The notes under the pieces: model-generated
Seen by the model: the letters and a program-made list of their open reading frames with translations, nothing else
Told to the model about the DNA's origin: nothing
Databases searched by the model: none
Source of the DNA: an uncultured Thermoanaerobaculum sp.
GTDB taxonomy: Bacteria > Acidobacteriota > Thermoanaerobaculia > Thermoanaerobaculales > Thermoanaerobaculaceae
Direction: 5' to 3'
Length of the DNA stretch: 64,000 nt
NCBI GenBank assembly: GCA_937934115.1
Contig: CALHAH010000029.1
Location: 1-64,000, forward strand
Shown here: positions 1 to 41,690 of the stretch, piece after piece
Layout of the letters: each line of letters opens with the position of its first letter
Position numbering within the stretch: the first letter of the stretch is position 1
Made by a program: the position numbers and the translations under genes

Positions 1-378
1 CGCGGGTGGGTGGTGGGGGGCGAGCGTGCCCCCCGCGGGAGATAACCGGCGGCCCCACATTTCCTCGCGGCGGCCCCACATTTCTCCGCGCCGCTCACAC
101 AGAGCAAAAACGTAAGAATGTGGGACCCGCGCTCGGCGCGGGTTCTGAAGAAACAAATGTGCAACATCGGGTCCGCGCGAGTTTTCCAGGAATGTGTTTA
201 TTGCCGCCGCGGAGCGGCGGCCCCACATTTCCTCGCGGCGGCCCCACAGCGCAAAAAGTTAAAAACGTGGGACCCGCGCTCCGCGCGGGTTAAAAAGGAA
301 AAACGTTTATAGCCGGCGCAGGAGCGCCGGCCCCACAAACGGAGCGGCGGCCCCACATTTGTCCGCGGTGGCTTCACA
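1..378. repeat. Cluster of REP-like palindromic units (first cluster)
   Basis: This gene-free stretch holds at least three complete hairpin units and several partial ones. Plus-oriented units read TGTGGG or CGTGGG followed by an 8-bp stem ACCCGCGC/GCGCGGGT (stems 125-143 and 272-290). Minus-oriented units have a GC stem followed by CCCACA, which is TGTGGG on the other strand: stem GCCGCCGC/GCGGCGGC at 203-221 and stem GCCGGCGC/GCGCCGGC at 312-331. Partial units keep only the 3' stem arm and GGCCCCACA at 47-59, 62-80, 231-248 and 341-357, with a degenerate one at 360-378. Alternating head-to-head and tail-to-tail order resembles bacterial REP/BIME arrays. No RAYT transposase is visible in the window. 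Confidence 0.75.
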
Positions 379-386
379 GAAGCGAG

Positions 387-710
387 GTCGGAAACGGTTC
401 CGAGTTCGCCAGGGAGTTTTCGAAAGCCCTGCACGCCTGCGGTCTTGAACACTTCTGGACCAACTTTCGGCTTCCCCAAGGAAAACCCTTTCGTGAAGCG
501 TGAAAGCCGCACCCTTCAGGACATGTTCATCAACTACAACCCGGATCTCCTCTTCACCGCCGTGGACCTAGAAACCGCAAGCTGGCCCAGTTTCTCATCC
601 GCGGAGGCACGCAACTCCCCCACCACGCCGGAAAACTCAAAACCGCTATTCAGGTTTTCTCCGACTCCACCAAGGCGTGCCAAAAGTTATGGACGAATAC
701 GCGCGGGTAA
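387..710 (+). pseudogene. Decayed C-terminal remnant of a DDE (IS481/rve-type) transposase
   Basis: Translating from 387 gives VGNGSEFAREFSKAL, followed by GLEHFWTNFRLP. This matches the usual DNGSEF...LGI.H....P core of rve integrase-type transposases. The frame then shifts by one base to read PFVKRESRTLQDMFINYN, equivalent to the VERFNRTLQEEF segment. It shifts back near 582 to read LAQFLIRG, PHHAGKLKTAIQ and CQKLWTNT before a TAA at 708-710; these correspond to the usual WYN.xRPHHSLG and CxMxWTxT tail. The N-terminal two thirds are missing and no start is present. A degenerate REP-like unit abuts the truncation point. The family call rests on recognised motifs only, and the gene is clearly non-functional. 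Confidence 0.7.
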
Positions 711-6700: not shown

Positions 6701-7106
6701 CTTCGAAGCTACCGTCGTTGTTTTCCGCGTCCAAATCGTTGATCCCCAAGTACAGCTCGCCACCTCTCACGATAGTGCCGGAAAACTCCTTGCCCACGAG
6801 GAAAGGATCGCCATCTTCCCCTACCTTGCCGATGAGCGCTAGGTGCGGCCACTCGGGGACCAAGCTGTACCGCGCCCATTCGGGGTGCTCAGAAGTTCCT
6901 TCTGGCCCAAAGCGCCACTGCCCACCCGCAAGCTCGCCCGTGGCCGTGAGGTGCAGCTTTTGCCCTGGTTGGACATGTAGCCCTGTTTTTGTCCAAGTGG
7001 CGGCGCAGGGCACCTTCACGGTCTTGCCCCTCTTCTCAGCGTTCCCACCGCAAAAGCTAAGCACCAGCACCGCCGCCATCACCCCAACTAAAGTTAGCTT
7101 GCTCAT
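6681..7106 (-). CDS. Secreted lipoprotein with LecA (PA-IL)-like lectin domain
   Basis: A 141-residue exported protein. The N-terminus has a short hydrophobic stretch ending in LSFC, a plausible lipobox, so it may be lipid-anchored. The mature part resembles LecA-type jelly-roll lectins: ATWTKTGLHVQPGQKLHLTA at the start, LALIGKVG in the middle and GGELYLGINDLDAENNDGSF at the end. The last carries the N-D..(D/N)N calcium and sugar ligand pattern. Ligand specificity is unknown. Its start overlaps the stop of the upstream gene (ATGA), placing it last in a group behind proS. Confidence 0.65.
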   Translation of the reverse strand: MSKLTLVGVMAAVLVLSFCGGNAEKRGKTVKVPCAATWTKTGLHVQPGQKLHLTATGELAGGQWRFGPEGTSEHPEWARYSLVPEWPHLALIGKVGEDGDPFLVGKEFSGTIVRGGELYLGINDLDAENNDGSFEVTVFLQ

Positions 7107-7654
7107 GGCGCACCTCCTTCCCCAAGTTGCTGCAAAAGCCGGCCGGCCAGTTCCTCGGCCACCTGTCGCAAAAACTGGCTTTTGGGAGGGCCCACCTGCA
7201 AGAAAAGCCCACCCAGATCCTCGAAGCGCTCACGGGCAAACGCTTTGAGCTCCCCCAGCTGGCGCTGGCATTCGGCCTTGGCCTCCTCACACGGGGTGCA
7301 AGCCACCTCGCCAAAAGCGGTTGTGTCTTCGATGATTTCCACTGCCGGCTTTTGGCCCTTCGCTTCCGGTTTCTCAAGCCCTCCCGGCCACTGGGGTGAA
7401 ACCTTAAGCCTTTGGGAAAAGCGAGCTGCCACTGCCCAACCGGTAGAAGCCTTGCCGACGACGATGGGAACTGCCACCACCTCCAGGCAAACCGCCGTTT
7501 CCCTGCAGTTCCAACGGGTTTCCCTACCTAACTTGCTTTGCAAGCCCTCACGCAACACCAAACGCGCTCCTGGGTCGTCCACCGTCAAGATCACCCCTAC
7601 CTGCGAAGTCGGTGTGCTAAGCGTGGCCTGCAGGAGGAGCAACGCCAAAAGCAC
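7103..7654 (-). CDS. Hypothetical secreted protein
   Basis: A 183-residue protein I do not recognise. The N-terminus MLLALLLLQATLS looks like a short signal peptide. A beta-rich region follows with a Cys pair (WNCRETAVCLEV) that could form a disulfide. A CTPCEEAKAEC segment and a helical C-terminus (FARERFEDLGGLF...EELAGRLLQQL) close the protein. It starts with a GTG overlapping the TAG stop of proS by one base, and its stop overlaps the lectin-like gene by ATGA. The three are presumably one transcript, but nothing in the sequence explains the link to proS. Confidence 0.6.
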   Translation of the reverse strand: MLLALLLLQATLSTPTSQVGVILTVDDPGARLVLREGLQSKLGRETRWNCRETAVCLEVVAVPIVVGKASTGWAVAARFSQRLKVSPQWPGGLEKPEAKGQKPAVEIIEDTTAFGEVACTPCEEAKAECQRQLGELKAFARERFEDLGGLFLQVGPPKSQFLRQVAEELAGRLLQQLGEGGAP

Positions 7655-41420: not shown

Positions 41421-41690
41421 AAACATAGGACCCGCGCTCCCCGCGGGTTTTGCGGGAAAGTGTCGACAGGACCGGAGCGAGGCCCGGCTTTGCTGGGCCG
41501 AGGGTGGAGGTGCGGGGGGCTAAGCCGGCCACGGGGGGGTGGGAGGAGCGTGGCCGTGCCCCCCGCGTCAGATAACCGGCGGCCCCACAAAAAACAAAGT
41601 GTGGGACCCGCGCTCCGCGCGGGTTTAAAAAGGCGTCCGCAATGGATAGCTGCGCTGGGCCAGCCAGGGGCGGGGGGCGGAGCCCCCGCT
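41421..41690. repeat. Second cluster of REP-like palindromic units
   Basis: This gene-free stretch repeats the units seen at 1-378. A complete plus-oriented unit TGTGGG with stem ACCCGCGC/GCGCGGGT lies at 41600-41624, and a degenerate one (stem 41430-41448) lies at the left. A partial minus unit GGCGGCCCCACA lies at 41578-41589. Positions 41555-41589 match positions 25-59 of the first cluster at 33 of 35 bases, including GATAACCGGCGGCCCCACA. Another GC hairpin with GGA loop sits near 41671-41688. The cluster separates the citrate synthase promoter from the 3' end of the BNR protein gene; I see no gene in 41317-41793. Confidence 0.75.

Follow-up and report, generated by a model that had tools for sequence, protein, structure and literature searches.

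Introduction

The first 378 nucleotides of the DNA analysed here (a stretch of 64,000 nucleotides, referred to below as the window) coincide with the start of contig C29 in the genome of a Thermoanaerobaculaceae bacterium (G000; 2.42-Mb, 52 contigs, 96.7% complete) and hold a series of short hairpins that share a 5' head but differ in their stems. The question raised by this locus is whether these hairpins form a family of REP elements and, if so, which transposase serves them. Canonical short-hairpin REPs are defined by a GTAG or GTGG no more than 2 nt 5' of a hairpin whose stem is paired throughout its 7-20 bp, with a GC-rich foot and a loop of 2-5 nt, and the 66 described families behind these rules carry one or the other tetranucleotide (PMC6006769). 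The first-pass annotation held that the head TGTGGG lies outside the usual REP heads and that the family may for this reason be undescribed. This argument fails, since the published consensus reads GT[AG]G: the GI REPs of P. fluorescens start with GTGGGAG (PMC3116915), and the GTAG-20 elements of O. terrae mostly carry GTGG (PMC3733652). Among the matches listed for a literature query combining REPIN, RAYT and Acidobacteria, on the other hand, none describes this exact family of Thermoanaerobaculaceae. Taken as a whole, the locus is very probably best explained by a RAYT-linked REP/BIME (REPIN) family; the family is new, whereas the kind of element to which it belongs is well known.

REP units of the window

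Three stem types are found in 1-378, namely A (ACCCGCGC pairing with GCGCGGGT), B (GCCGCCGC with GCGGCGGC) and C (GCCGGCGC with GCGCCGGC), with TCC, TCG or TCCT as loops and mostly TGTGGG as heads. They make up four full hairpin units, in agreement with the first reading of the locus as hairpins with three stems: an A-type unit on the plus strand at 119..143 (TGTGGG-ACCCGCGC-TCG-GCGCGGGT), a B-type unit on the minus strand at 203..227 (TGTGGG-GCCGCCGC-TCC-GCGGCGGC), a second A-type unit on the plus strand at 266..290 and a C-type unit on the minus strand at 312..337 (TGTGGG-GCCGGCGC-TCCT-GCGCCGGC). The head had been described as the same throughout, which is true of most units, but the unit at 266-290 has CGTGGG, with one mismatch. 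This unit and the C-type unit form a tail-to-tail REPIN with a 21-bp spacer and a predicted clover fold.

About half of the units previously taken for hairpins are in fact half units, in which the head and the 5' arm are present without the hairpin. B half units are located on the minus strand at 67..80, at 235..248 (21 bp 5' of the head of the full B unit) and at 344..357 (20 bp 5' of the head of the C unit). Positions 1..59 (minus strand) turned out not to be a REP hairpin but a longer, repeated spacer element truncated at the contig start: the head TGTGGG and GCCGCCGG are followed by TTATCTCCCGCGGGGGGCAC..., the arm of the half unit at 51-59 (minus strand) passing into different sequence, and the same junction is found again at more than ten further sites of G000. 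A second cluster of the window (41576-41624) consists of a B half unit running into the long spacer element (41576..41589, minus strand) and an A-type unit (41600..41624, plus strand).

Copy number and genomic position

Chance GC-rich inverted repeats within GC-rich intergenic DNA might be suspected, given that the genome is GC-rich and that the head followed by CC is by itself not enriched in 1-378 (9 occurrences vs 5.5 expected). The 16-base pattern of head, arm and loop, however, matches six times in the same interval where 0.06 matches are expected, and a strict pattern that admits the three stems finds 50 exact copies in G000 (26 on the plus and 24 on the minus strand), far beyond the handful below which the family would have been doubtful, while its reversed version does not match once in all 60 genomes. 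Chance, which we regard as next to impossible, is thus already refuted by the copy number. The congener G001 contains 46 exact copies and the congener G002 none; within the same family, six are present in G013 and one in G010, and the remaining genomes searched have none. G000 contains 87 exact 14-mers of head and arm and G001 contains 84, with 0-1 in the reversed control.

Scoring of the sequence that surrounds almost every listed cluster of G000 gave 68 full units (38 A, 19 B and 11 C). As was anticipated for REPs, all 68 are extragenic, i.e., outside the coding sequences called with a home-made hexamer model, at a coding density of 0.88-0.89. Their distribution is also strongly biased towards contig ends, with 28 of the 68 located 400 bp or less from an end vs 1.7% by chance. 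REP clusters occupy at least 15 contig ends of G000, and the fragmentation of this genome is therefore partly caused by the REPs themselves.

Stem pairing and orientation

The pairing of the stems is preserved despite the changes in their sequence, as first proposed from the window. Among 74 hairpin-bearing units, chosen by their 5' half only, the two arms of the same unit pair at 8/8 positions in 65, whereas re-dealing the arms leaves a mean of 26 and a maximum of 40. Types A, B and C differ by two-sided changes at stem pairs 1, 4 and 5. An additional change of this sort (ACCTGCGC/GCGCAGGT) occurs in a single copy. Such changes represent few evolutionary events passed down to many copies. The three standard arms are perfectly paired in 54/68 full units, and some units have unpaired stem changes. 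The units conform to the canonical rules (PMC6006769) in that GTGG stands one base from the stem (TGTGG-G-stem), all 8 bp are paired and the loop is TCC or TCCT; the high copy number, the extragenic position and the inverted pairs at set spacing expected of BIMEs and REPINs are likewise present.

Alternation of orientation, noticed at the outset as BIME-like, follows a strict rule. Neighbours of type A and type B or C (150 bp or less apart) have opposite orientation in 26/26 cases in G000 and in 10/10 in G001, and A-A neighbours have the same orientation (3/3 and 2/2, respectively). The tail-to-tail spacer is 20-21 bp long in 14/17 pairs of G000 and 9-14 bp long in G001. This is the BIME/REPIN layout built from two unlike halves, like the Y and Z units of E. 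coli. For the pair at 263-340, folding of the single strand predicts a DNA clover in which the heads are paired and two hairpins project (-27.8 kcal/mol, z -4.9).

GC-rich stems outside genes could also be bidirectional transcription terminators or stabilisers of mRNA 3' ends that do not move at all. TTTT often follows A units, and 17/20 REP-bearing intergenic regions lie between tandem or convergent genes. Yet the other three regions are divergent, a terminator scan returned no such site in 1-378, and a terminator needs neither a conserved single-stranded head nor fixed pairing of types and spacing, let alone tandem half units and linkage to a RAYT. We consider it highly improbable that the hairpins are of this kind, but a terminator or stabiliser role may exist on the side.

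RAYT transposase

Pfam profile and protein searches found no cognate RAYT in the G000 assembly. At its default threshold the Pfam Y1_Tnp profile also missed the RAYT of G001, for which a protein search was used instead. This RAYT, P0001, is encoded by an intact gene for 151 aa (C13:156-608) that lies between REP units, so that the REP-flanked RAYT gene which the first-pass annotation had led one to look for is absent from the source assembly and present in the congener; at genus level the arrangement is that of a REPtron. P0001 matches NCBIfam REP_Tyr_transpos with E 1.9e-22 and 79.7 bits, just under the cut-off of 80, and its Pfam score of 21.2 is just under the cut-off of 23. Its best match among solved structures is TnpArep 4ER8 (E 1.7e-6), and the alignment to 4ER8 places the HUH motif in PDHIH and the catalytic tyrosine in RYI..NP; PDH.H and the tyrosine of YI..NP are conserved in three RAYT orthologues. 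Together with copy number, extragenic position and the phase of the unit types, the REP-flanked gene bears out the proposed link between these REPs and a RAYT.

Two other genes belong to this account. A Y1-like gene at C30:33030-33203, the sole one of the G000 assembly, was considered as the cognate RAYT of G000 and rejected, as no such REPs occur within a 14-kb stretch. A second, unrelated RAYT-like gene is located at 6923-7546 (minus strand) of stretch L064, also on C30 of G000, and has the hairpin TAGGGGCAGACCTACGTGTCTGCCCC within its coding sequence.

Known REP/RAYT systems conserve the head and exchange the stem, each system having its own RAYT. By sequence, the same pattern is seen here. 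The RAYT of G011, a member of another genus, is 53% identical to P0001 and has inverted arrays on both sides, whose units share the head with the REPs of G000 and have different stems (TGTGGGGCGCGACCGCCGGGCGCGC); copies of this unit number 40 in G011 and six in G013, with none in G000 or G001.

Where the RAYT of G000 would be expected is indicated by gene order. In G001, a trmL-like gene is the downstream neighbour of the RAYT; contig C10 runs out in REPs behind a histidine-kinase gene, and C13 opens with the RAYT and the trmL-like gene, which places the RAYT in the interval between kinase and trmL-like gene. In G000, contig C3 likewise runs out in REPs behind the kinase gene, and C10 opens with REPs followed by the trmL-like gene; the expected RAYT site is therefore a break of the assembly within a REP array. 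G002 has the two genes on one contiguous sequence, about 50 bp apart, with neither REP nor RAYT. The first bases of C10 in G000, checked for the 3' end of a RAYT, belong to the terminal part of a long spacer element, so the gene, if present, must lie further left. Most likely, the RAYT of G000 is situated in this kinase-trmL gap.

Alternatively, the REPs of G000 may be orphans, the RAYT that spread them having since been lost and the copies decaying or being kept for other uses. An assembly that is 96.7% complete and has no RAYT would be in keeping with such a loss, as would the units with unpaired stem changes, and REPtrons can be deleted, as reported in PMC3733652. But the assembly breaks exactly at the RAYT locus of G001, within a REP array, and the great majority of the full units have kept perfectly paired standard stems. 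We regard orphan REPs as unlikely, though to be reckoned with, and continue with a RAYT-served family.

Probable mobility and proposed mechanism

Nine G000 clusters have both flanks syntenic in G001 stretches. At six of these, a head and an arm or more are present in G001, and three (C3:43670, C7:90172 and C39:16472) have REPs in G000 and none in G001. From this pattern of presence and absence we infer that the elements have moved, the comparison being one of whole sites: the intergenic DNA of the two genomes is too diverged and aligns too poorly for exact junctions and base-level empty sites to be visible.

The active form is probably the inverted tail-to-tail pair, in which about 20 bp separate an A unit from a B or C unit; the two TGTGGG heads would pair and the two stems would project as a clover. 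By analogy with known systems, the RAYT, an HUH/Y1 tyrosine transposase, would recognise the head and hairpin on single-stranded DNA, take GTGG as a guide for the cut and paste copies into extragenic sites. A GTGG guide permitted cuts at CC and, less efficiently, at CA (PMC8266576), and the same cuts would be predicted for the present family.

Half units, long variant and transposase remnant

Half units also occur in tandem arrays with a period of 19-22 bp, in most cases on the 5' side of a full unit that shares their type; examples, with a period of 20-21 bp, are the half units of the window at 67-80, 235-248 and 344-357 and those of G000 at C27:103-179 and C14:84292-84358. In a long REPIN-like variant, a B head and an inverted A unit are separated by about 115 bp or more of conserved spacer (TTATCTGCCGCGGGGGGCACGGCCACG...), within which two inverted repeats are found. 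It is represented in the window at 1-59 and 41500-41589 and in the stretches L083, L082, L081, L132 and others. The long spacer element has no match in Rfam, the nearby Rfam hits being tRNAs only.

The cluster at the start of the window is joined, through a constant junction, to a degenerate transposase-like sequence of about 330 bp (373..702, plus strand). It is a frameshifted remnant of a transposase C-terminus, reading ...NGSEFA...NPFVER..., of which G000 contains 11 copies and G001 one, 79-89% identical; besides that of the window, copies are in L076, L130, L071, L133, L120, L125, L128, L082, L118 and L121. In G000 the remnant adjoins 11 clusters, always on their B/C side and with CCCCACAGGAGCGAGG as the near-constant junction, and its far side stops at an IS-like right end, TGTCAAGGGGCC. 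An IS-type MITE with both IS ends was rejected as its identity, as the right end alone was found. Half-unit arrays, long variant and remnant suggest that larger composites were copied, by whichever agent. One could imagine that the RAYT cuts at the hairpin loop and rejoins the ends, multiplying half units and carrying adjacent DNA, such as the 330-bp remnant with its 11 copies, as cargo, but we find this rather improbable.

Comparison with known systems

Among the closest parallels is the REP/BIME system of E. coli (Y, Z1/Z2 and TnpA-REP), which likewise has two opposite unit types per cluster, an extragenic position and a unit-flanked RAYT (PMC6006769), and whose TnpA-REP structure, 4ER8, is matched by P0001. 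The present family differs in the head (GTGG, not GTAG), in perfect 8-bp stems with a 3-4 nt loop and no bulge, in a tail-to-tail spacer of 20-21 bp and in the half-unit arrays. The GI REPINs of P. fluorescens (GTGGGAGGGGGCTTGC) share the head GTGGG, the short hairpin, the inverted doublets and a nearby RAYT (PMC3116915), but their stem and loop are different, and here the halves of a doublet bear different stems. The GTAG superfamily, including O. terrae GTAG-20, resembles the family in the terminal GT[AG]G, stems of 6-9 bp, dimers and clusters, whereas sequence and host are different, and the G000 family is not found among the families in the available part of that source (PMC3733652). Within the same phylum, the TIRYT of Koribacter and Terriglobus and class 3 of Solibacter are also repeats linked to Y1 transposases, but they have long TIRs or a CnGA foot in place of GT[AG]G hairpins (PMC3733652, PMC6006769).

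At the RAYT locus, REP arrays are where a draft assembly comes apart, so that calls of 'orphan REPs' in drafts can be false. With the REPs described here, the known range of GTGG-headed REP/RAYT systems comes to include a family of Acidobacteriota, and the series of three genomes, one with RAYT and REPs (G001), one with REPs and a gap at the RAYT site (G000) and one with neither (G002), constitutes a natural test of the dependence of REPs on their RAYT.
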